From: an uncultured Clostridia bacterium
Lineage (GTDB): Bacteria > Bacillota > Clostridia > Lachnospirales > Lachnospiraceae
Assembly: GCA_947303805.1 (NCBI GenBank)
Contig: CAMYZE010000003.1
Span: 62,001-126,000, forward strand
DNA: 64,000 bases
Direction: 5' to 3'
In this document: in pieces, positions 5,911 through 61,129 of the stretch
Layout: each line of letters begins with the position of its first letter
Numbering within the stretch: position 1 is the stretch's first letter
Translations under genes and position numbers: made by a program
The notes under the pieces: generated by a model
Databases searched by the model: none
What the model was told of the DNA's origin: nothing
What the model saw: the letters and a program-made list of their open reading frames with translations, nothing else

Positions 5911-6621
5911 CTATGATTTTGCTTTATTCTTAAGCACTGAATTCATGAACATTTTATTGTACTCATCACGTCCTATTACATTAACACGCTTTTTGCTCTT
6001 AGCCTTGCTATTTTTTTCAAATCCATCAGTATATTGTTTAGCATCATCTGCATTTTTAATTTTTTGCTCATACCACGACTCTGCTACAGCTGCCATATAT
6101 TTCGCGTTTCTTTGGTCCTTATTTGCACAATATTCCAAAAGATATTGTATAAGTCCCTCATCAAATCCATAATCATTGTAGCATCTTGCGATTAATGCCT
6201 GTTGTCTCTCTGACATAGTTTGACCGAGCAGCCTCTCAGCTTGAAATAATAAATCAGACTCTATTTCTTCAAAACTTTTTCTATTTTTATTTATTAACTC
6301 ATTTTTCTTAGTTTGGAAATCAACAAGGTTATTTGTCTTTTCAGCAACTGATTTCTTTTCAACTCTATCATATACTAAGCAATCTTTTTTGAATATTTTT
6401 TTCTTAATCCAAAACTTTAATGCCATCTCTATATCTTTCTCTGGGAGATCTATCTCGTTTGATGCCTCAGAAATCGTATAACCTTCTTTTATTCCCTTCC
6501 AGAAATAAAACAGAAAAACCTTAATTTTTTCGGGGCTTACATCAGATAAAAACTTTTCTAAAAATTCATTAGATATTATTGTGACATTACTACCATATAA
6601 GCTATCAAATAACTCTTCCAT
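5911..6621 (-). CDS. DnaD-domain replication protein
   Basis: A 236-residue protein with an N-terminal winged-helix-like region and a C-terminal DnaD/DnaB2 domain (residues about 120-200, including the YxxxGF-type DYGFDEGLI and YCANKDQRNAKYMAAVAESWYEQKI segments). It probably acts with the downstream helicase loader at replication initiation or restart. The start is the ATG at 6619-6621, with GGAGG eight bases upstream; an upstream in-frame TTG would overlap that SD and is less likely. Confidence 0.82.
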   Translation of the reverse strand: MEELFDSLYGSNVTIISNEFLEKFLSDVSPEKIKVFLFYFWKGIKEGYTISEASNEIDLPEKDIEMALKFWIKKKIFKKDCLVYDRVEKKSVAEKTNNLVDFQTKKNELINKNRKSFEEIESDLLFQAERLLGQTMSERQQALIARCYNDYGFDEGLIQYLLEYCANKDQRNAKYMAAVAESWYEQKIKNADDAKQYTDGFEKNSKAKSKKRVNVIGRDEYNKMFMNSVLKNKAKS

Positions 6622-6649
6622 CCCGTTCCCTCCTACCAATCGTTAGCAG

Positions 6650-6680
6650 AATATATCACAAGATTTATAATTTTTTAATA
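6650..6680 (-). promoter_or_regulatory. Possible extended -10 promoter for dnaD-dnaI-prs operon
   Basis: On the minus strand TGATATATT (extended -10; hexamer at 6650-6655) lies about 30 bp upstream of the dnaD start in a 160-bp AT-rich spacer after murC. The -35 region is weak (TTAAAA at a 17-bp spacing). No terminator for murC is obvious here. Confidence 0.35.
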
Positions 6681-6802
6681 CCTATATAAACAACTTTATA
6701 ACAAAAAATTTTTTTAATGTTTATTACTTTTTTTTATAAAAAGATAACTAATTCATTCATATTATTTTTATTATGAACATACCGTCAATTATCATATTCA
6801 AG

Positions 6803-8188
6803 CTACATCATATCAATAATTTTGTAAACATCTCCTGCACCCATAGTAACAACAATGTCGCCATTCTTAGCATTTTTTGAAACATATTCTTGAATATCCG
6901 AAAAAGTTTCAATATATTCGCAAAAATTATTTTTACTATTTTTATTCTCTTTAATTCCAATTTCTATATCTTTAGAACTAATAACCCCTAAATCCTTTTC
7001 TCTTGCTGGATATATTTTAGCAAGTATTGTTATAGGATTATTACCTAAAACCCGCACAAAATCACTATATAATGCCTTAGTTCTTGTAAAAGTGTGTGGC
7101 TGGAAAATCAAATATAAGTTGTTATATTCTATTTCTTTAAGGGCTTTTAAGCTCGCCTCTATCTCAGTTGGGTGATGAGCATAGTCGTCTATATAAGTTA
7201 TTCCATTGACTATCTTCTTAACTTCTAGTCTTCTCCGCGCGCCTTTGAAATTTTCAAGGCTATTTTTCACATCATCAAAACTTATGCCAAACTCGTTTAG
7301 AGCTGCAAAAGCGGCTAAAAAGTTTAGTGCATTATGTTTACCAATCAACTTCTGCCTCATCCTACCGACAAGTTTTTCTTTGTAATATACATCAAAAGAT
7401 TGGTAATGTTCTTTATCATAACTTACATTGCTAAAATAATAATCAGCAGCCCTGTCATCTCCATAAGTTATAACTTTTGATTTAATATTTTTAGTGAGAG
7501 ACGCGATGTCATCTATTTTATTATTAATGACTAGCACACCATCATCGGGAAGTAATTCAATAAACTTTCTAAATGAATTTCTTATATCATTTATATCTTT
7601 AAAAAAATCAAGATGGTCTTCTTCTATATTTGTGACTACAGCAAGACTTGGGCAGAAATCCAAAAAGCTATTGGTGTATTCACATGCTTCGGCGATAAAT
7701 AACTCTTCACCTTTACCGATATAGGAGTTTCCACCTATTTCGTCAACAATCCCTCCTACATTAATAGTCGGGTCAAGATTCTTATCAAGCATAACTTTTG
7801 AAATTAAAGCTGTAGTAGTTGTCTTGCCATGTGTACCTGCAACGCATATTCTTCTATTGTAATTTGCCATAATTTCGCCTAGAATGCTTGACCTTGATAC
7901 CAACTTTATACCCAATTCCTTAGCTTTTATTATTTCCTCGTTATCATCATGGATTGCCTTTGAATATACTACAATATCAATATCCTTGGTTATATTATCT
8001 TTCTTATGACCAATAAATATTTTTATGCCCTTCTTTTCGAGTTCTTTAACATTGTAATTTTCGCTGACATCTGATCCACTAATGATAAATCCATTTTTAA
8101 GCAATATAAGTGCTATTGCACTCATTGAAATGCCACCGATACCTATAAAATGCACTTTTAACTTTTTATTAAAATCAAACACTTTCAT
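6803..8188 (-). CDS. murC: UDP-N-acetylmuramate--L-alanine ligase MurC
   Basis: A 461-residue Mur ligase that adds L-alanine to UDP-MurNAc in the cytoplasm, the first peptide step of peptidoglycan synthesis. Motifs: N-terminal Rossmann GIGGISMSAIA, P-loop GTHGKTTTTALI near residue 110, and the HHPTEI segment in the C-terminal domain. Length is normal for MurC. It follows metI by 6 bp, so it is probably cotranscribed with metNI although the functions differ. Confidence 0.95.
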   Translation of the reverse strand: MKVFDFNKKLKVHFIGIGGISMSAIALILLKNGFIISGSDVSENYNVKELEKKGIKIFIGHKKDNITKDIDIVVYSKAIHDDNEEIIKAKELGIKLVSRSSILGEIMANYNRRICVAGTHGKTTTTALISKVMLDKNLDPTINVGGIVDEIGGNSYIGKGEELFIAEACEYTNSFLDFCPSLAVVTNIEEDHLDFFKDINDIRNSFRKFIELLPDDGVLVINNKIDDIASLTKNIKSKVITYGDDRAADYYFSNVSYDKEHYQSFDVYYKEKLVGRMRQKLIGKHNALNFLAAFAALNEFGISFDDVKNSLENFKGARRRLEVKKIVNGITYIDDYAHHPTEIEASLKALKEIEYNNLYLIFQPHTFTRTKALYSDFVRVLGNNPITILAKIYPAREKDLGVISSKDIEIGIKENKNSKNNFCEYIETFSDIQEYVSKNAKNGDIVVTMGAGDVYKIIDMM

Positions 8189-8194
8189 TTTAAA

Positions 8195-8854
8195 TTACAA
8201 TCTCTTGTCACTCTTTCTTGCAATTCCCATAAATATTTCTTGTAATATCTGCACTATAATTACAAGTAAAACCACTGTCACTATCATAACATCTTGATTA
8301 TATCTATAATAACCATATCTTATTGCTACATCTCCAAGTCCACCTCCGCCTACAGCTCCAGCCATCGCACTATATCCTAATATGGTTGTTATAGAGATAG
8401 CCGCACCTATAAGTAGAGAAGGTTTTGATTCAGATAGCAATACCCTTGTAATTATTTGAAAGTTTGTAGCTCCCATGGATTTTGCAGCCTCTATGACTCC
8501 AAGATCTACTTCCTTTAAAGATGATTCAACCATTCTTGCTATATATGGACTTGCTGAAAAAACAAGAGGTGGTATTACTGCCTTTGCACCTATTGAAGTC
8601 CCGACTATAGCCCTAGTAACAGGTATTACCAATATAAGCAAAATCAAAAATGGTATAGACCTAAATACATTTACTATAAGAGATAAAACATTATATACAG
8701 CAACATTTGGAGTAAGTCCATCTTTTGCAGTGCAATATAAAAGCACACCAAGTGGAATACCAATCATATATGCTATCAGTGACGATGTGATAGTCATAAA
8801 GAATGTCTCTGCTATTGCAGTTGTATATAGAGAAAGATCAATCGCCAAAAACAT
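8195..8854 (-). CDS. metI: Methionine ABC transporter permease MetI
   Basis: A 219-residue, five-helix permease of the D/L-methionine ABC importer. The EAA loop (EAAKSMGATNFQIITRVLL) that docks to MetN is near residue 135. The start is the ATG at 8852-8854 sharing its A with the metN TAA stop (TAATG); GGGAGG precedes it. The cognate substrate-binding lipoprotein MetQ is not in the surrounding genes, so it must be encoded elsewhere. Confidence 0.92.
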   Translation of the reverse strand: MFLAIDLSLYTTAIAETFFMTITSSLIAYMIGIPLGVLLYCTAKDGLTPNVAVYNVLSLIVNVFRSIPFLILLILVIPVTRAIVGTSIGAKAVIPPLVFSASPYIARMVESSLKEVDLGVIEAAKSMGATNFQIITRVLLSESKPSLLIGAAISITTILGYSAMAGAVGGGGLGDVAIRYGYYRYNQDVMIVTVVLLVIIVQILQEIFMGIARKSDKRL

Positions 8855-51799: not shown

Positions 51800-51888
51800 T
51801 TGTTGCCTTCTTAATTAATTCTACAACTTCATTTATTTCTTTAGTTGTTTTGCCGACCAACTCCAAAGCCTGCCTTGTGCCGCATTCA
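51792..51888 (-). pseudogene. C-terminal fragment of DUF4314 gene, cut by RIT
   Basis: The frame encodes ECGTRQALELVGKTTKEI and about a dozen more residues to a TAG at 51792-51794. ECGTRQALE is the natural continuation of the zinc motif CPICKKEY ... ICSEC at the far side of the element (55731). Joining the parts gives about 131 residues. It no longer has a start. Confidence 0.88.
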
Positions 51889-51908
51889 TTATTCAAGTAT
51901 TAGAATAA

Positions 51909-51944
51909 TGAATGTTATCTTAATAAATAAGTTATCCAAGTAAA
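51909..51944. repeat. RIT left terminal inverted repeat
   Basis: 36 bp, identical in inverse orientation to 55695-55730. Outside it lies a further 12-bp palindrome (CATTCATTATTC at 51883-51894 with GAATAATGAATG at 51903-51914) that the right end lacks. Confidence 0.9.
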
Positions 51945-52053
51945 TAAGAAATATGTTAATAAATTTGAAGATTTTTTAATGATTTATCTCGGATAAATTT
52001 AATTCTTAAAGTATAATTAATTATTATTATATTATACGAGGAGGTAATCAAAA

Positions 52054-53586
52054 ATGGCAAAATCTTCAATTATTTACAATCAATCGCTAAACTCATTGGT
52101 TCAAAAATTATTAAAACAAATGGAAGATGCAGGTTATAGCAAACAGACATTAACCAGTGTCTTTATACTATTACGACCCATTCAGACATTTATGGATTTA
52201 AGAGGAGTTGCTCATTATTCTAAACAGATAGGTATTAATTATCTAAATGAGTACTTTAAAAGCCACAAGCAATCTAAAAGATGGGAACAAACTTTAGTTC
52301 GTACAATTAAATTATTGAATGACTCTTATGATGGCAAATTTATTACTCGACAAAAGGCAGGTTTCTTCTATAACGAATCATTATCTTATCTTATTAGCAA
52401 ATTGACCACTCAACTTAAATCTTTAGGGTTTTCAAAAGAAACGATAAAGAATTACATTACAAGGCTTAGGCCAATTCAAACATACATGAAAGCCAATAAA
52501 ATCATTGAGTATACAGATAAAGTTGGTGTTATGTATTATCAAAATTTTCTAAAAACTCATATCACTAACGATGTGACTAAAAAAGAATTGAAAGCATCTA
52601 TTTCACGATTAAATGATATTTATAATGAGGTTTCATTTATTCGTATGCATACATCATCAAGTAAGAAAACTATAATACCACAATGTTTTGAGAAAGATGT
52701 GAGTGCATTTATGAACTATATCAGTTTTTATGGTAATTCAAAAAAAACTATATATAGACGAACAAAAGCCTTAAATAATTTCTTAACAAACTGTTTACAA
52801 AGTTCGGTGCATTCTGTAAGTGAATTAACACCTAAAGTTATACAATTAATATGTAAGAATGTGACAAACATTGATGATTGGGTAACAATTCGTCAATTTT
52901 TGAAATATTTAGCAATGCATAATAAAACCAGTAGTGATTTTTCTATATTTGTTCCTCAAAAGCGTCGCGAAAAAAAAGTACCGACCACTTATAGCATTGA
53001 AGAAATCAAATCAATTGAGTCAAACATAGATAAAACTACTTTTCAAGGGAAGAGAGATTATGTAATAATTCTTATGGCGAGTCGTTTAGCAATACGTTCA
53101 GGTGACATTGCAAAAATGAAAATCAGTAATTTGGATTTTACTACAGCAACGATTTCTTTTATTCAGCAAAAGACTGACATAGAAATAAAACTGCCTATGA
53201 TTCCTGAGCTCAAAATAGCCCTTGATGAGTATTTAAGTGAAGCTGACACATCTGATGGATATCTATTTCATACTTTATTTGCGCCTTATAATCATATTGA
53301 TAATAATGTTGTTAACAATACTGTAAATAGATACATTAATAAAGCAAAAATAAACATAGTTGGCAAAAGACATGGGCCACATGCCTTAAGAGCTTCTGTT
53401 ACGACATCTATGATTAATGATGATATTCCTTATGAGGCTGTTCGTAATATATTAGGTCATTCTTCACCCAATAGTATTAAATATTATGCTAAGAATGATA
53501 TTGAAAAATTAAGGCGATGTTCGATTGATGTGCCAGCCCCCAAACGAAATTTTGCTATATTTCTTACAGGGGGTGTTACACTATGA
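52054..53586 (+). CDS. RIT tyrosine recombinase A
   Basis: A 510-residue tyrosine recombinase. C-terminal catalytic motifs: RLAIRSGDIAKM (Arg I), GPHALRASVTT (HxxR), ILGHSSPNSIKYYAK (GH and Tyr). The N-terminal half contains an internal duplication: residues about 7-100 (YNQSLNSLVQKLLKQ ... LLRPIQTFM) repeat as about 107-200 (YNESLSYLISKLTTQ ... RLRPIQTYM). This makes it longer than the two partners. GAGGAGG precedes the ATG. Confidence 0.92.
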   Translation: MAKSSIIYNQSLNSLVQKLLKQMEDAGYSKQTLTSVFILLRPIQTFMDLRGVAHYSKQIGINYLNEYFKSHKQSKRWEQTLVRTIKLLNDSYDGKFITRQKAGFFYNESLSYLISKLTTQLKSLGFSKETIKNYITRLRPIQTYMKANKIIEYTDKVGVMYYQNFLKTHITNDVTKKELKASISRLNDIYNEVSFIRMHTSSSKKTIIPQCFEKDVSAFMNYISFYGNSKKTIYRRTKALNNFLTNCLQSSVHSVSELTPKVIQLICKNVTNIDDWVTIRQFLKYLAMHNKTSSDFSIFVPQKRREKKVPTTYSIEEIKSIESNIDKTTFQGKRDYVIILMASRLAIRSGDIAKMKISNLDFTTATISFIQQKTDIEIKLPMIPELKIALDEYLSEADTSDGYLFHTLFAPYNHIDNNVVNNTVNRYINKAKINIVGKRHGPHALRASVTTSMINDDIPYEAVRNILGHSSPNSIKYYAKNDIEKLRRCSIDVPAPKRNFAIFLTGGVTL

Positions 53587-54599
53587 TTTATGAATATAAT
53601 AGTTTTTTGAAAGAATATATACAAAATTTTTTATTACAACAAAAATCTATCGTTACTGACTTTACTTATGCACACCGTTGTGGGATATTAAGAAATTTTG
53701 ATGAATTTGTAATAAACAATAATTGTAAGGATATTAATTTTACAGAATCACAAGTATTACAGTGGATTGCATCATTAAATGGCAAAAGAGCAACAATTAA
53801 TTCATATATCAATGTAATAAGGGTATTTTTTAAATTCCTTGCTGGTTATGGATTTCATCCATTTCAACCACAACAAATCAAACCTCACAATGATTATATT
53901 GCTTATGAATTTAGTGATGAAGAACTAAAACAAATATTCCTTAATGCAGATTTATGTTGTTTATCATCAAATCCAAATTCTGCAACTAAATCACACCCTA
54001 CAACCAAATATTTTAAGCTCAAATATGAATTACCTATGATTTTACGGATAATTTTAGGTTGTGGATTAAGATTAGAGGAAGCTACAACAATTCAATTAAA
54101 AGATATAGATTTTGACAAAGATGTATTAACAATAAAAAAATCTAAAAGCAAAGAATATCGAATTGTTCCAATGAGTGAATCATTAACTACTATTCTTACT
54201 CAATATTGTAAATCAATGGGACTAGGGTTAGACAATGAAGCATATATTTTCCCAGGAACAAACTTTAGCAAACCTATACCATCATTTTGCATTAGAAATC
54301 ATTTTAATCATTTGCTTAAAAAGTCAAATATTTCAGTTCTAAATAGAAAAAAACATGAACGAGGAATGTGCATACATTGTTTTCGCCATACTTTTGCTCA
54401 CAAATCATTTAAAAAAGGACTAAAAGATGGCTGGGCTATAAATGATCAAATTCCTTGGCTCTCAGTTTACTTAGGGCATAAAAATCTTCGTGAAACAGAA
54501 AAGTATCTAAAATTTAACAGTGAAATATTTAATGAAGAAATAGAAATGTTCGATAAATATTCACAAAATCTATTTCCGGAGGTAATGTTTGATGAATAA
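53583..54599 (+). CDS. RIT tyrosine recombinase B
   Basis: A 338-residue tyrosine recombinase with GCGLRLEEATTIQL (Arg I), CIHCFRHTFAHKS (HxxR) and LGHKNLRETEKYLKF (GH and Tyr). SAM-like core-binding domain in residues 1-110. It overlaps recombinase A by 4 bp and C by 11 bp, so all three are translated together. Confidence 0.92.
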   Translation: MIYEYNSFLKEYIQNFLLQQKSIVTDFTYAHRCGILRNFDEFVINNNCKDINFTESQVLQWIASLNGKRATINSYINVIRVFFKFLAGYGFHPFQPQQIKPHNDYIAYEFSDEELKQIFLNADLCCLSSNPNSATKSHPTTKYFKLKYELPMILRIILGCGLRLEEATTIQLKDIDFDKDVLTIKKSKSKEYRIVPMSESLTTILTQYCKSMGLGLDNEAYIFPGTNFSKPIPSFCIRNHFNHLLKKSNISVLNRKKHERGMCIHCFRHTFAHKSFKKGLKDGWAINDQIPWLSVYLGHKNLRETEKYLKFNSEIFNEEIEMFDKYSQNLFPEVMFDE

Positions 54600-55617
54600 T
54601 TATTCTATATTTCTTTCTCTTTCAGAGGACTTTATTGGAAATTACTTGTCAAATGGAAAGGGATTAAGTTTAAATACTATTAAATCATATAAATATGCAT
54701 TTAGGTTACTAATTGAGTTCATGTATAAACAAAAGGGTATTGATGCGAATAAAATCCAATTTTCAAATTTAGATTATAATACTTTATTATCATTCTTTGA
54801 TTGGATAGTTTCTATAAGAAAATGTAGCACAAAAACAAGAAATCAAAGGTTAGCTGCACTAATGTCATTCTCTGAATATGCTCAAAATAGAAATTTTGAT
54901 GCTGCATCAGTATTTAGGAATAGCATCATAAAAATTCCTTTTAAGAAAACAAAAAGTGAATGCCGTAGTTGGTTTGATACAGATGAAATTAAAATAATAC
55001 TAAATTTACCAAATGATTATACAGCAATAGGACTCAGAGATAAAGTTTTACTTTGTATTATGTATGCTACTGGAGCACGAGCTCAAGAAATATGCGACCT
55101 TACTGTTTCAAGCATTAGATTCTCTAATAATAATACAACCATTGATATACAAGGCAAAGGAAACAAATATAGAAGAGTTAAGATTTCAGAGCATGCATCA
55201 AAAATTCTTAAAAATTATATTACAAAATTACATATTGAACATACACCAAATAAGCATATTTTTTCAAGCCAAACACATGAAAAGATGAGTGTTTCTTGTA
55301 TTGAAGAGATTGTTAGAAAATATATAAAAAAAGCAAAACAACAATTCCCTAATAAATTTCTTATGAAAAGTTATCATCCTCATTCATTTCGCCATACTAC
55401 TGCAACACATATGTTAGAAGCTGGTGTACCAATAATGGTTATCAAGAACTTTCTTGGGCATTCATCAATACAAACAACTCAAGTGTATGCAGAATTAACA
55501 CAAAATACAGTTGATAAATATGTATCAGAATGGAATGAAAAATGGTTTAATGACTATCCTACTTTACCTGAACAGAATACAAGCAATAATAATATACCAA
55601 GTTTTTTAAATATTTAG
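54589..55617 (+). CDS. RIT tyrosine recombinase C
   Basis: A 342-residue XerC-like tyrosine recombinase: YATGARAQEICDLTV (Arg I), HPHSFRHTTATHML (HxxR) and FLGHSSIQTTQVYAEL (GH and Tyr). CGGAGG lies before the ATG. It is the third member of the trio and is followed by a hairpin terminator before the right inverted repeat. Confidence 0.92.
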   Translation: MMNNYSIFLSLSEDFIGNYLSNGKGLSLNTIKSYKYAFRLLIEFMYKQKGIDANKIQFSNLDYNTLLSFFDWIVSIRKCSTKTRNQRLAALMSFSEYAQNRNFDAASVFRNSIIKIPFKKTKSECRSWFDTDEIKIILNLPNDYTAIGLRDKVLLCIMYATGARAQEICDLTVSSIRFSNNNTTIDIQGKGNKYRRVKISEHASKILKNYITKLHIEHTPNKHIFSSQTHEKMSVSCIEEIVRKYIKKAKQQFPNKFLMKSYHPHSFRHTTATHMLEAGVPIMVIKNFLGHSSIQTTQVYAELTQNTVDKYVSEWNEKWFNDYPTLPEQNTSNNNIPSFLNI

Positions 55618-55641
55618 TTTAGTTATCTTAGAAGATAATAT

Positions 55642-55697
55642 AATGGAGCTAAAAATACATTGTTTTTTCAATGCTTAAATTAAAAAGCTCCATTTTT
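55642..55697. terminator. Compound terminator after the RIT genes
   Basis: Outer stem AATGGAGCT (55642-55650) with AGCTCCATT (55686-55694), containing an inner CATTG/CAATG hairpin, followed by TTTA. It abuts the right inverted repeat. Confidence 0.75.
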
Positions 55698-55730
55698 ACT
55701 TGGATAACTTATTTATTAAGATAACATTCA
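55695..55730. repeat. RIT right terminal inverted repeat
   Basis: 36 bp, perfect inverse copy of 51909-51944, directly joined to DUF4314 coding sequence at 55731. Confidence 0.92.
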
Positions 55731-56029
55731 CTGCAAATCTCGGTCTTACTATCGACTCTTGAAAGAGCAGGTCGCCCTTTATACTCTTTTTTGCAAATAG
55801 GACAAGTTCTTATGCGAACACAACTATCTTCACCATATGCTACTCCTAAACTTGACCCTGTGCTCCATCTAACATGTATTGTCCCCATATCATCAACATC
55901 AGTTACTTTGCCACGAGTGCCACTTGGAACTGGGTGATATGGATCATTCATTTCTATTAACTCTACCGTACATCCTTCCGGATACTCTTCTTTTAATCTC
56001 TCTATTTCTTCTCTACTCGGATTTTTCAT
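55709..56029 (-). pseudogene. DUF4314 gene, N-terminal part, cut by RIT
   Basis: Encodes the DUF4314 domain (residues about 1-80: MKNPSREEIERLKEEYPEGC ... GTRGKVTDVDDMGTIHVRW) and the start of a C-terminal zinc ribbon (CPICKKEYKGRPALS ... ICSEC). The last four codons before the stop come from the RIT inverted repeat. The true C-terminus is at 51792-51888. The domain is common in Clostridial phages next to large terminase genes; function unknown. Confidence 0.85.
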
Positions 56030-56884: not shown

Positions 56885-57115
56885 CTAAAACAACATCTTC
56901 TTAAATATTGCTTCAAGACAATTTACAACTATAGAGTTCCCTGCTTGCTGATAGAGCCTTGCATCTGAATTTATTTTTCGTGCCTTTTCAAAGTCGGTAT
57001 CATCAAAGCCCATAAGTCTCCAGCATTCCTTTGGTGTTAACTTTCTTATTCTCAAATTCTTTTTATCATAATCCATAAGTTTTCCCTCATTCCTTAATTT
57101 AACATATTCACACAC
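56885..57115 (-). CDS. C5-methyltransferase motif IX-X fragment (beta-like subunit)
   Basis: A 76-residue ORF (GTG start) carrying the C-terminal signature of cytosine-C5 methyltransferases: RIRKLTPKECWRLMGFDD (motif IX) and NSDARLYQQAGNSIVV (motif X). The frame is open upstream to about 57,168 and there aligns with the second half of the preceding module (ITINDEGFTLDEK versus ITVNDENLTLDEK), so it is separated from the G module by a small indel. Alone it cannot catalyse; it could complement the motif I-VIII protein. Confidence 0.75.
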   Translation of the reverse strand: MCEYVKLRNEGKLMDYDKKNLRIRKLTPKECWRLMGFDDTDFEKARKINSDARLYQQAGNSIVVNCLEAIFKKMLF

Positions 57116-57159
57116 TTTCTCTTTTTTCTCATCAAGTGTAAATCCCTCATCATTTATTG

Positions 57160-57282
57160 TTATGGCATGTCCGCACCTTTAAGTAAACATAGTGCAGGAC
57201 TAATACCATCTTTTTCAATTATCCGTCCATTACAAAACCCTCTCGGATTGTATGATCCAAGTGGAATAATCTTATTTGACAT
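57160..57282 (-). CDS. C5-methyltransferase module G (frame-shifted copy of F)
   Basis: A 40-residue ORF (MSNKIIPLGSYNPRGFCNGR ...) clearly paralogous to module F (MKIIVLGNYKPSGHACGRII ...). Its ATG overlaps the end of F at GGATATG. It stops early after GADMP; relative to F it lacks about 4 bp before ATAACA, which explains the break from the motif IX-X fragment. Confidence 0.55.
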   Translation of the reverse strand: MSNKIIPLGSYNPRGFCNGRIIEKDGISPALCLLKGADMP

Positions 57283-57475
57283 ATCCATTCCTTCTTACTA
57301 TGAATAACCTAACAAGTTCTATTTTCTCATCAAGTGTTAGATTCTCATCATTTACTGTTATGCAAGTTACCTCTCCGTGATTTTCCATTACTGTTGGAGC
57401 AATGCCTGACTTATCTATAATTCTTCCACAAGCATGTCCTGATGGTTTGTAATTACCAAGAACTATTATCTTCAT
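57272..57475 (-). CDS. C5-methyltransferase array module F
   Basis: A 67-residue ORF (MKIIVLGNYKPSGHACGRII ... GIAPTVMENHG ... LTLDEKIELV). The ATG at 57473-57475 overlaps the TAT codon of the preceding module (GTGTATGAAG) and GGAGGAG lies upstream. The GRIIDKSGIAPTV pattern occurs in the region before motif IX of phage C5 methyltransferases. No motif IX follows. Confidence 0.6.
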   Translation of the reverse strand: MKIIVLGNYKPSGHACGRIIDKSGIAPTVMENHGEVTCITVNDENLTLDEKIELVRLFIVRRNGYVK

Positions 57476-57665
57476 ACACAACAACCGCTCCTCCACCATC
57501 TCTTGTTACTGTAGGTGCTAACTTTGATTTATAAACAACTGGATGTCCAATCCCTGTATCAAGAGTTTTTAGTCGTGCTTCTGGATATTGATAACCTACA
57601 GTGTCATATGGCTCTACCCTATTTTCAGCAATTAATCTATTACATAATGTTTTAACCTTTGTCAT
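57453..57665 (-). CDS. C5-methyltransferase array module E
   Basis: A 70-residue ORF (MTKVKTLCNRLIAENRVEPY ... SKLAPTVTRDGGGAVVVYED). EPYDTVGYQYPEARL and APTVTRDGGGAVVVY align with module D. Start at TATGAC overlapping module D, with GGAG in the GVVV codons serving as SD. Confidence 0.6.
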   Translation of the reverse strand: MTKVKTLCNRLIAENRVEPYDTVGYQYPEARLKTLDTGIGHPVVYKSKLAPTVTRDGGGAVVVYEDNSSW

Positions 57666-57852
57666 AAACTACAACTCCATAATTAACTACATTTGTTTTA
57701 ATACAAGGGCTTATGCCACCGGTCATTTGTTTATGTAGTTTGTTATCTTTTATCTCATTTAGTCTTGCATTCGCATATGATAAATCAATAAAGTCATAAG
57801 GCTCTAACAAGTCACTATTAACAATTCTATTTATCACTTCATCTTTCATCAT
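57652..57852 (-). CDS. C5-methyltransferase array module D
   Basis: A 66-residue ORF (from MMKDEVINRIVNSDLLEPYD ... YGVVVYDKG). EPYDFIDLSYANARLNE followed by ISPCIKTNVVNYGVVVYD matches modules B and E. Start ATG at 57850-57852 lies in the TATGATG overlap with module C, nine bases after GGAG. Confidence 0.6.
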   Translation of the reverse strand: MMKDEVINRIVNSDLLEPYDFIDLSYANARLNEIKDNKLHKQMTGGISPCIKTNVVNYGVVVYDKG

Positions 57853-58069
57853 AGACAACTACTCCTAAACTTCCACTACAAGTTATGGTTTGTGACATTC
57901 TCTTTTGCACTCTTCCTCTTCTTGTATTTTGCCCCATATATGATAAATCAATACCATCAAAGACTTCAGCAATTAAGTATCCTAAGTCGGTCGCATTCTT
58001 AATATAAAAGAACCCATCTGCTTTTATGCCAAGCATTGATGGATTCTCTTTAAAAAAATCTTTAATCAT
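57839..58069 (-). CDS. C5-methyltransferase array module C
   Basis: A 76-residue ORF. FFYIKNATDLGYLIAEVFDG followed by IDLSYMGQNTRRGRVQKRM and TITCSGSLGVVVYD resembles the segment between the target-recognition region and motif IX in known phage C5 methyltransferases (GDSINLS ... TRRGRVGK ... QTLDT). The ATG overlaps module B by 8 bp (ATGATTAA) and has GGAG nine bases upstream. Confidence 0.62.
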   Translation of the reverse strand: MIKDFFKENPSMLGIKADGFFYIKNATDLGYLIAEVFDGIDLSYMGQNTRRGRVQKRMSQTITCSGSLGVVVYDER

Positions 58070-58256
58070 AAACTACTACTCCAAGAGTGTCGGAATGAGT
58101 GGACAAACAACTACAAACATTTCTATCTTTGCCATTAGTGAGTTTAACTTGTTTATGTTTCATTGCATAAGTTCCGTAAGAATGCCTTATGACATCATAT
58201 GGTTTTACAAGTTTTTCTCTTATCAGCATATTGCAATATTGCCTTTGTAATTTCAT
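58062..58256 (-). CDS. C5-methyltransferase array module B
   Basis: A 64-residue ORF (MKLQRQYCNMLIREKLVKPY ... SCLSTHSDTLGVVVYD). Its start shares bases with the TAA of the motif I-VIII gene (CAATAATG) and GAGG lies five bases upstream. It shares KPYDVIxxSY and LGVVVYD with modules C to E. Confidence 0.6.
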   Translation of the reverse strand: MKLQRQYCNMLIREKLVKPYDVIRHSYGTYAMKHKQVKLTNGKDRNVCSCLSTHSDTLGVVVYD

Positions 58257-59011
58257 TATTGCCTCACAAAATTATCTACAGGTCTACTCCCCGCTTTAGT
58301 AGTTACACACTTTCCAACCTCTCTATCTATGCTTCCTTCAAACTGCTCTTTCCTTGGATACCCACCTGTGTCTTCCTTGCTAAAACACTTGATTAACTTG
58401 TCAGATAAAAAATACTTCTCATCTACTTTATCTTCAAGTAGGTCTTTTAAGAAGATTTTTAATTCTTGCTTCTCAGGAAATGTGAAATCTTTTTCTATGT
58501 CTTTGCGAATAGATATGGTGAACACTCTCTCACGATTCTGTGGGATGCCGTAATCCTTGGCATTCATTATTTGATAATAACTCTTATACCCTAACTCATC
58601 CATTCGCTCTAAATAGTTATTGAAATTGTGGATATGTTTCTTTGATAAAAGATTTTTGACGTTTTCCCACAAGACATACTTTGGTTTTATCTTCTCTATA
58701 ATTCTTAATGACTCATACATAAGAGATGATCTCGTGCCACTTCCTTCATCACCACCTGCTTGTTTACCAGCTATAGAGTAGTCTTGACAAGGCGATCCAT
58801 GTCCGATTAAATCAATGTCCTTATAATCTTTATCCCATCCAGTTATATCTTGCACAGGAAACAAAGTATTATTGATTGCATTGTAACTTGCTACAGCATA
58901 CTTATCTATTTCAACATAATCTACAACTTCTACATCTATGCCAATTCTCTTTAATGCTTTAGTAGTCGCCCCTATGCCACCGAATAATTCTATTACTCTA
59001 AACTTGCTCAT
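58256..59011 (-). CDS. Cytosine-C5 DNA methyltransferase, motifs I-VIII only
   Basis: A 251-residue catalytic part of a C5 methyltransferase: VIELFGGIGATTKAL (motif I), GHGSPCQDYSIAGKQ (motif IV with nucleophile Cys), LWENVKNLL (VI), and GIPQNRERVFTISI (VIII). After a short DEKYFLSDKL segment it stops at 58256-58258, without motifs IX-X, which are about 1.1 kb downstream. Precedents for split C5 enzymes are M.AquI and M.EcoHK31I. It overlaps the N6/N4-methyltransferase gene; AGAGG precedes the ATG. Confidence 0.9.
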   Translation of the reverse strand: MSKFRVIELFGGIGATTKALKRIGIDVEVVDYVEIDKYAVASYNAINNTLFPVQDITGWDKDYKDIDLIGHGSPCQDYSIAGKQAGGDEGSGTRSSLMYESLRIIEKIKPKYVLWENVKNLLSKKHIHNFNNYLERMDELGYKSYYQIMNAKDYGIPQNRERVFTISIRKDIEKDFTFPEKQELKIFLKDLLEDKVDEKYFLSDKLIKCFSKEDTGGYPRKEQFEGSIDREVGKCVTTKAGSRPVDNFVRQ

Positions 59012-60272
59012 TCTTAAACACCTCTTCATATTTCATTTCTTTGCCACCTCGAATAACAGTAATATCAGATGTATTGCCTTCTTTAAACTTTTTATATCTC
59101 TCTACTGCAACATCTACAAACTTTGGTTCTAACTCAGCTCCATAGCACACTCTATTTAACTGCTCGCAAGCTATAAGTGTTGATGCTGAACCTAAGAATC
59201 CATCAAGAACTAATCCATTTGTTTGTGTTGATAAACCTAAAAGATAAGCAAGTAATGGCACAGGCTTAGAACTTGGGTGACCAAATCCGTCCTCTTTAGA
59301 GTTCTTTATGCCATCGAATTCAAATACCGCTTTTTGTTTTTGGTCTCCATACCATATATGCTTTCCTTGCTTTTTCCATCCGAAAATTAGCGGTTCCATG
59401 TTAAATTTCCAGTCAGTTCTCATAAATGGTGCTCTTGGTTTTTTCCAAATAAGACCTGCACCAACTTTAAATCCAGAATCTTCAAATGCATCATAGAATA
59501 CTCTTGCTTTCATAGTTGCATAGAACACATAAATTGATGCATCATTCGCCATATACTCATTAAAGTTCGCAAATACCGACATTAAAAATTTAACGGCGTC
59601 CATATCATTTAAGTCATCATTCTTTATTTTTCCTGATGCACTTTCAAGAGCAACAAAATATGGTGGATCGGTTAACACAAGATTCACTTTCTTATCTCCA
59701 AGTAACTGTTTATAAGTCCCTTCAAATGTTGAATCACCACAAATAACTCTATGCTTTCCAAGTTGCCAAATGTCTCCTGCTTGAGAGAACACAGGTTTCT
59801 TTAATTGCTCCTCAACATCAAAGTCATCTTCTTTTGCTTCAGTTGGTATCTCAAATAGTGCTCCTAACTCTTTCTCATCAAACCCAAGAATGTCTATATC
59901 AAAATCAAGACCCTTTAAATCTTCAATCTCAACTTTTAACATCTCATTATCCCAGCCTGCGTTTTCTGATAGTTTATTGTCTGCTATGACATAAGCTTTT
60001 ATTTGTGCTTCAGTTAAATGCTCTGCCATAAGACAAGGAACTACCTCAAGCCCAAGTTTTCTTGCTGCAAGAATTCGTCCATGTCCCGCTATGATTGTGT
60101 TATCTTTTGAAATGATAATCGGTGTCATAAAGCCAAACTCTTTTATTGATGCTGCTATTTGTGCCACTTGCTCATCAGAATGTGTGCGTGAGTTTCTTGC
60201 ATATGGTATCAACTCTGATACTTTTATCTTTTTAAATTTTAATTCTTGATTTTGTATTTCTTGGTTATCCAT
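58998..60272 (-). CDS. ParB-domain/DNA N6-adenine or N4-cytosine methyltransferase fusion
   Basis: A 424-residue two-domain protein. Residues about 10-100 form a ParB/Sulfiredoxin-like N-domain (SELIPYARNSRTHSDEQVAQ, IIAGHGRILAARKLG). Residues about 170-410 form a beta-class amino-methyltransferase with DPPYFVALE (motif IV) near residue 207 and LVLDGFLGSASTLIA (motif I) near the end. It probably methylates phage DNA to escape restriction. The start is 24 bp after the hairpin at 60287-60311. Confidence 0.88.
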   Translation of the reverse strand: MDNQEIQNQELKFKKIKVSELIPYARNSRTHSDEQVAQIAASIKEFGFMTPIIISKDNTIIAGHGRILAARKLGLEVVPCLMAEHLTEAQIKAYVIADNKLSENAGWDNEMLKVEIEDLKGLDFDIDILGFDEKELGALFEIPTEAKEDDFDVEEQLKKPVFSQAGDIWQLGKHRVICGDSTFEGTYKQLLGDKKVNLVLTDPPYFVALESASGKIKNDDLNDMDAVKFLMSVFANFNEYMANDASIYVFYATMKARVFYDAFEDSGFKVGAGLIWKKPRAPFMRTDWKFNMEPLIFGWKKQGKHIWYGDQKQKAVFEFDGIKNSKEDGFGHPSSKPVPLLAYLLGLSTQTNGLVLDGFLGSASTLIACEQLNRVCYGAELEPKFVDVAVERYKKFKEGNTSDITVIRGGKEMKYEEVFKNEQV

Positions 60273-60286
60273 CTAATTCCTCCATC

Positions 60287-60311
60287 AAAAAAGAGACTCT
60301 ATACAAGTCCC
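60287..60311 (-). terminator. Terminator-like hairpin between metK-like and methyltransferase genes
   Basis: Minus strand GGGACT/AGTCTC stem (one G-T pair; 60306-60311 with 60293-60298), with a 7-base loop holding the TAG stop of the metK-like gene, followed by TTTTTT. Its 3' part AGTCTCTTTTTTGATG is shared with the hairpin at 36642. Confidence 0.65.
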
Positions 60312-61129
60312 CATTCTGCTAATTTCTCAAATCCACCTAACTCCTTAATGTAATCAAGTGCGACTTTTGTAATCTCTTTATATGACTTACTTACACCATC
60401 TATTACTACATCTTTATCACCAATGGCACATACTGCATACTTTACAGGAAGTTCAGTCTTACCACTTAACTGTGCCATTTTATGCAGATAGACATTTACT
60501 GCTACATCAGCTTTGCTGATATCTTTAAAATGTAATCCACCACCAGTTACCGCTCTTCCTAAGTCAGAGCCTAACTTTCTATTACAAGCTCCTGTATCAA
60601 CATCCGAACCTCCAGTCCAATATCCAAGTGGATTAACTATTACATTCTTGATACCAGTGAGTTCCAAATCTTCTTTTAGTTTATCGCTATCTACATTTGA
60701 TTGACAAGCAATAAGCGTATCAGTTTCACTATCATAGATGAACTTGCCATCAAATGTATATTTTTTATAAAGTGCTCTTACAATTCTTGTGAGTTTCTTT
60801 TCTTCCTCATTCACTCTACATCCTTTGAATATGCCATTGTCACCACACTTTATAATCTTAGATTGATTGTTTGCGAGATGTTCATCTTGAGGAACTATCT
60901 GCAAATCAACCTTAACATTAAATCCTGCAATTCTATGAACTATATCTTCAATATCCTCTCGCTTATAGTTCACACTTGTCTCAATGATTATGTGACAGTT
61001 ACCGTGCCCTAAAAGACACTCGCCTGCAATCTTTGGACTATCTTGCATCTTATATCCTAAATCAACTATTGCTCCACCAATCCTATCGCAAATTTTATCA
61101 GGATGGCTTGGGTTTACTTTTTCAAACAT
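60299..61129 (-). CDS. Divergent, short S-adenosylmethionine synthetase (phage MetK)
   Basis: A 276-residue MetK-like protein (bacterial MetK is about 390). SHPDKICDRIGGAIVDLGY aligns with the conserved HPDK catalytic block, KCGDNGIFKGCR with GDQG, and NPLGYWTGGSDVDTGACNRK with the NPTGRFxxGGPxxDxGLTGRK block. It also has GGGLHFKDISKADV for the GGGAFSGKDxTKVD block. Key blocks are present but altered. It should supply SAM for the two methyltransferases encoded next to it. Confidence 0.82.
   Translation of the reverse strand: MFEKVNPSHPDKICDRIGGAIVDLGYKMQDSPKIAGECLLGHGNCHIIIETSVNYKREDIEDIVHRIAGFNVKVDLQIVPQDEHLANNQSKIIKCGDNGIFKGCRVNEEEKKLTRIVRALYKKYTFDGKFIYDSETDTLIACQSNVDSDKLKEDLELTGIKNVIVNPLGYWTGGSDVDTGACNRKLGSDLGRAVTGGGLHFKDISKADVAVNVYLHKMAQLSGKTELPVKYAVCAIGDKDVVIDGVSKSYKEITKVALDYIKELGGFEKLAEWGLV

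Follow-up and report, generated by a model that had tools for sequence, protein, structure and literature searches.

The stretch of DNA analysed here, hereafter the window (64,000 nucleotides), is prophage DNA within a MAG of 1.9 Mb (G000) from a rumen or gut bacterium, and the gene order on its minus strand runs from small terminase through an S-adenosylmethionine synthetase-like gene, a ParB/N6-N4 methylase, a C5 DNA methyltransferase locus and two small genes to large terminase and portal. The C5 methyltransferase lies on the minus strand as separate ORFs: a catalytic part with motifs I–VIII (alpha), six tiny overlapping ORFs (B to G) and a short part with motifs IX–X (beta). Alpha (58256–59011, 251 aa) matches PF00145 over profile positions 1–232 (E 3.6e-59) and ends in a first tail resembling a target-recognition (TRD) unit (...CVTTKAGSRPVDNFVRQ), and the motif IX–X piece matches positions 265–322 of the same profile (E 1e-13); both SPCQD and ENVKN are present, so that motifs I–VIII, with the PC catalytic motif, and IX–X are all found, on separate ORFs as an earlier note on this DNA had proposed. 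Beta occupies 56885–57076, with an ATG start at 57076 that gives 63 aa (MDYDKKNLRIRKLTPKECW...). On the other side, alpha is overlapped by a gene for a ParB_N and N6/N4 DNA methylase protein (58998–60272, minus strand; PF01555 1.5e-25, PF02195 2.2e-8), and the next gene upstream is the S-adenosylmethionine synthetase-like one (60299–61129, minus strand; PF00438 2.1e-9); such a phage gene adjoining DNA methylases is also found in other phages, next to the C5 gene (L002, L005). A Tn554-like trio of tandem tyrosine recombinase genes (51875–55733, plus strand) is inserted in the prophage, where it splits a 131-aa gene between the C5 locus and large terminase that is intact in another genome, G010 (L084:7885–8280).

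The six ORFs between alpha and beta, all on the minus strand, follow each other closely. Module B (58062–58256, 64 aa) starts at TAATG and overlaps alpha by 1 nt; C (57839–58069, 76 aa) starts at TATG with an 8-nt overlap with B; D (57652–57852, 65–66 aa) starts at TATGATG, 14 nt inside C; E (57453–57665, 70 aa) and F (57272–57475, 67 aa) both start at TATG, with overlaps of 14 nt with D and 23 nt with E, respectively; and G (57160–57282, 40 aa in the window) overlaps F by 11 nt. The step from alpha to B is −1, at TAATG, and those of B–C, C–D, D–E, E–F and F–G are +1, at TATG. The chaining through overlapping ATGs described in the earlier note, mostly +1 at TATG, therefore holds, with overlaps of 1 to 23 nt, and it exceeds chance: the window has a chain of six ATG-started ORFs of at least 38 aa, and the maximum in 1000 dinucleotide shuffles was two.

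The start sites carry translation signals of their own. The anti-Shine-Dalgarno duplex energies at the module ATGs range from −5.6 to −6.8 kcal/mol, against a background of 246 ATGs of which 14.6% reach −5 kcal/mol or below; the values are −7.1 for alpha, −5.6 for B, −5.9 for C, −6.8 for D, −5.9 for E and −6.2 kcal/mol for beta, and −9.3 kcal/mol for F, the latter taken from the F homologues in L004 and L056. Before C, D and E the ribosome site is a GGAG, about 9 nt upstream of the ATG, inside the Gly-Val codons of the GVVVY end of the preceding module, so that the conserved end of one module also serves the following one as its ribosome site. GGA is the commonest glycine codon nearby (40 of 90), and codon bias may contribute to these sites.

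The same plan is found in related phages. Three close relatives, L004 from IMG/VR, L056/L084 (G010) and L085 (G003), and a more distant one, L086 (G008), with 72% identity in alpha, were compared. The order alpha-B-C-D-E-F-Gbeta is seen in L004 and L056; L085 is devoid of F, and its E joins Gbeta at an intact TATG; and L086 has alpha-C-D-F-beta. Modules are therefore gained and lost as whole ORFs. Synonymous and non-synonymous changes were counted by NG86, and since the counts per module are small the single omega values are rough, although all pairs point in the same direction: 0–0.12 for B, 0.06–0.28 for C, 0.06–0.33 for D, 0–0.29 for E and 0.09–0.20 for F, with 0–0.33 for B–F among close copies, 0.12–0.28 in the computable comparisons of C, D and F with L086, and 0.01–0.16 for alpha. 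Modules B–F, for which the earlier note had suggested a ratio per module, are under purifying selection. Sequencing error or chance as the source of the array was ruled out by these values, the shuffles and the occurrence in several independent genomes. Taken together, the starts and the substitution pattern indicate that the modules are separate, selected and very probably translated ORFs.

A former single multi-TRD gene broken by frameshifts, the decay that the earlier note had set out as an alternative to be expected if relatives had one intact ORF and the modules evolved neutrally, might produce a similar picture. The first of these expectations is borne out, as most of the distant relatives hold one ORF here, and the G of the window has lost one base relative to three relatives. 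Nevertheless, omega is 0–0.33 in B–F and dS to L086 exceeds 1 without stops in the modules, so that the neutral part of the expectation fails; the breaks lie always at module ends, always with an ATG and a Shine-Dalgarno site, and the plan is conserved among several genomes and also in rumen contigs unrelated to them. Decay is, on this evidence, highly improbable.

The boundary between G and beta is a particular case. In L004, L056 and L085, G and motifs IX–X form one continuous frame (131–132 aa), and the G of the window is one base shorter than those of these three relatives (GCGGACATG vs GCGGAACATG or GCTGAACATG), so that the separation in the window is either an assembly error or a change private to this copy. 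The earlier note had placed the IX–X part at 56885–57115, and a separate ORF is indeed found there, although the GTG at 57115 is not favoured as its start: the ATG at 57076 is the likeliest, with a Shine-Dalgarno energy of −6.2 kcal/mol. The separate beta of L086 begins at the equivalent place, and beta can thus start from its own ATG, as it does in that relative.

As to what the modules are, phmmer searches match the alpha tail, B, C, F and, weakly, G to consecutive segments of the TRD region in fused single-chain relatives. The alpha tail corresponds to the unit that precedes the TRD in the fused homologues (E 7.6e-14); B matches residues 254–311 of the fused enzyme L005 (E 6.4e-7), and also L175; F falls on the TRD segment of two fused enzymes, L092 (1.5e-12) and L122 (1.8e-11); and beta matches 95 fused-enzyme segments. 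The resemblance of C to the region before motif IX of phage C5 enzymes, claimed in the earlier note, is borne out by 30 hits in the TRDs of fused enzymes, the best at 1.2e-13, and, in profile searches, by a match to phrog_16427 (E 5.7e-9), a profile that runs on into the beta match; Pfam gave nothing for B–G searched alone. D and E have no direct match in the fused-enzyme set by phmmer, and D is 56% identical to a module in L086. The PYDxIxxSY...GVVVYD plan that had been attributed to B through E is common to B, D and E, which form one class, whereas C has only its end and is a different TRD type; F and G make up a third. A search of the family with each genus represented by one genome (299 genomes) recovers C from 14 further genera, always as part of a long single ORF, and D is matched nowhere but in its own genome; among viral contigs, C by itself retrieves only the near-identical L341. 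These homologies support the assignment of B, C and F as TRD-type units.

Structural models of fused relatives add a view of how such a unit may be placed. The model of L007 (377 aa, mean pLDDT 84.7, pTM 0.84) aligns with M.HhaI structures over 294 residues (Z 32.4, rmsd 2.5), its C-type unit (252–302) stands in the TRD place at a pLDDT of about 80–90, and residues 212–247, into which most of the alpha-tail unit falls, are disordered; the AlphaFold model of L005 has its TRD region at low confidence, and L007 is the better of the two. With a C-type unit in the TRD place and the preceding unit disordered, the site may accommodate no more than one unit at once, as judged from this one model. The same model bears on a holoenzyme in which all modules would be bound together in one large complex, without exchange. 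All modules are in one operon and co-translated, in agreement with such a complex, and SPbeta-type enzymes have several TRDs per chain (PMC8936443); nevertheless, the L007 model has only the last unit in the TRD place, the earlier one being disordered, and there is one beta per array, so that we consider the holoenzyme unlikely. The modules could also be a recombination store, in which the modules adjoining alpha or beta are the only functional ones and the rest serve as reserve cassettes that recombination would bring in. Loss and gain of modules at TATG boundaries would fit a store, but all modules have Shine-Dalgarno sites and are under purifying selection, the genome of the window has no second expression site for D or C, and the C-D-F order is unchanged in L086; we see a store as a slim prospect.

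In a wider survey of alpha relatives, based on a crude motif scan and with many loci counted repeatedly, 36 of 204 places were split between alpha and beta in one scan and 19 of 58 in another. Most relatives, including distant ones, have one intact fused ORF, and in L006, L012, L096 and L099 only beta is split off. Several TRDs on one ORF, or alpha and TRDs on one ORF, together with G8–G10 tracts, occur in L012, L021, L032 and L099, and there a slip would cut off all later TRDs. Two further loci were noticed: L272 (IMGVR_UViG_2602041658_000005, 5995–8295) has about five micro-ORFs between alpha and beta and a single G7 tract, and its contig number suggests an isolate genome, which may make it a cultivable test case; and in L120 (2576–3286) an N6-type methylase-like ORF apparently lies inside a split C5 locus, between the alpha and beta parts.

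Besides L004, L056, L085 and L086, an array like that of the window, which the earlier note had suggested seeking in other phages, was found in nine IMG/VR contigs (L022, L023, L262=L031, L263, L265=L030, L266, L267, L268=L027 and L321), which, from their IMG numbers, we take to come from sheep or cattle rumen. The plan is the same and the arrays are longer: alpha ends after motif VIII, and the micro-ORFs are joined at TATGA, a junction observed 16 times in L266 against 3.0 expected. Many modules contain poly-G or poly-C runs of 7–12, with 79 in 19.8 kb of arrays vs 7 in 76.8 kb of flanks and 3–17 tracts per array. The runs are often at the Gly-rich loop seen in TRDs, where E of the window has GGG without a homopolymer. 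Among modules with a single run, 9 are in frame and 24 out, near the one third expected of free switching, both counts being approximate because some junction calls are wrong (e.g. VTRY). Orthologous modules at 76–90% DNA identity differ in run length (G11/G9, G10/G8, G11/G7). These tracts are a candidate signature of independent phase variation of each module, short of proof; homopolymer assembly error could change single run lengths but cannot explain the enrichment. Two DNA patterns retrieved no near-identical copies of rumen arrays, in which a tract change within one population would be visible. The window has no G or C run of at least 7 anywhere, and the simple-repeat mark of phase variation is hence found in the rumen relatives and not here.

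The rumen arrays also bear on programmed +1 frameshifting at TATG, by which one long, SPbeta-like multi-TRD chain would be made. Five of the six junctions are +1 at TATG, and the fused homologues show that such a chain is viable. Nevertheless, the step from alpha to B is −1, at TAATG; each ATG comes with a Shine-Dalgarno site; the ribosome would have to shift five or six times in succession; F of L086 continues for 53 nt beyond the beta start in another frame; and the modules of the rumen arrays are mostly out of frame internally, so that no long chain is possible there. Frameshifting is accordingly improbable.

In summary, the reading that we favour, and hold to be probable, is that of a prophage C5 DNA methyltransferase built from separately translated parts, with specificity subunits that would be made singly and exchanged on one catalytic core formed by alpha and the short IX–X beta. 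Each module of the array would be a chain of 60–76 aa, started by termination-reinitiation at the overlapping ATG; the modules would most likely join alpha and beta one at a time, and non-covalently, so that one core could acquire several methylation specificities, and the varied methylation might protect phage DNA from varied host nucleases. A frameshift in one module, or its gain or loss, leaves the rest and beta expressed; separate ORFs therefore keep the modules independent, and this independence favours specificity subunits acting in trans. A tract in many rumen modules makes sense only if each is made singly, which supports the same reading. A 65-residue TRD unit alone may fold poorly, and this counts against separate subunits, as do the fused single chain that does the job in most relatives, the base missing from G in the window and the absence of a direct fused match for D and E. 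Of the recognition modules proposed in the earlier note as separate polypeptides able to alternate, the TRD units, their selection and their gain or loss as wholes stand, and alternation is strongly suggested by the rumen tracts, although the array of the window is without a tract. A further step, to which we would give an even chance, is that many TRD subunits compete for one alpha/beta core and that in the rumen relatives each has its own homopolymer switch (up to 17 tracts per array), lineages thereby sampling combinations of specificities against restriction, with the window as a stable, switchless version.

If so, a Type II-like C5 enzyme would obtain its target recognition in trans, from subunits of 65 residues, as a natural plug-in system for specificity, and phages could vary their methylation, and hence their escape from restriction, within a clonal population; the subunits would also be natural parts for building programmable methyltransferases. 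The reading would explain why the TRDs are cut into separate frames, as a frameshift in one module of a rumen relative spares the others and beta. The open-access literature searched contained no account of arrays of TRD micro-ORFs, nor of phage TRD arrays subject to phase variation, which is weak evidence of novelty; the arrays of micro-ORFs and those with a switch per TRD appear to be new.

There are precedents for two-chain C5 enzymes and for phase-variable methyltransferases. The two-chain enzymes M.AquI and M.EcoHK31I share with this locus the placement of I–VIII and IX–X on separate ORFs, which overlap in their case, but consist of two chains with one TRD, whereas here alpha and beta are accompanied by five or six TRD chains. 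In the split C5 enzymes of Streptococcus phages (Javan172, Javan129 and Javan179; L342–L344) alpha is likewise separate, although the TRD stays on the beta chain and there is no array of separate modules. The phase-variable methyltransferases (mod, Type IIG) have simple repeats, comparable to the homopolymer tracts within the coding sequence of the rumen relatives, but the known cases switch the whole enzyme, whereas the rumen relatives have an own tract in many TRD modules, and the window none. Type I restriction-modification systems with HsdS exchange also have a separate, swappable specificity subunit, as would be the case here, and a 1-nt overlap with coupled translation is described for hsdM and hsdS (PMC3510504); nevertheless, their methylation is of adenine, by HsdM, their HsdS is large with two TRDs, and there is no homology. 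Phage C5 enzymes of the SPbeta type carry tandem TRDs in one chain (PMC8936443), and those of Bacillus phages (M.SPRI, M.phi3TI and M.H2I) resemble this locus in being phage-borne and orphan, with tandem TRD units between VIII and IX; in them all TRDs are in one polypeptide, whereas in the window, L004, L056, L085 and L086 they are on separate overlapping ORFs.
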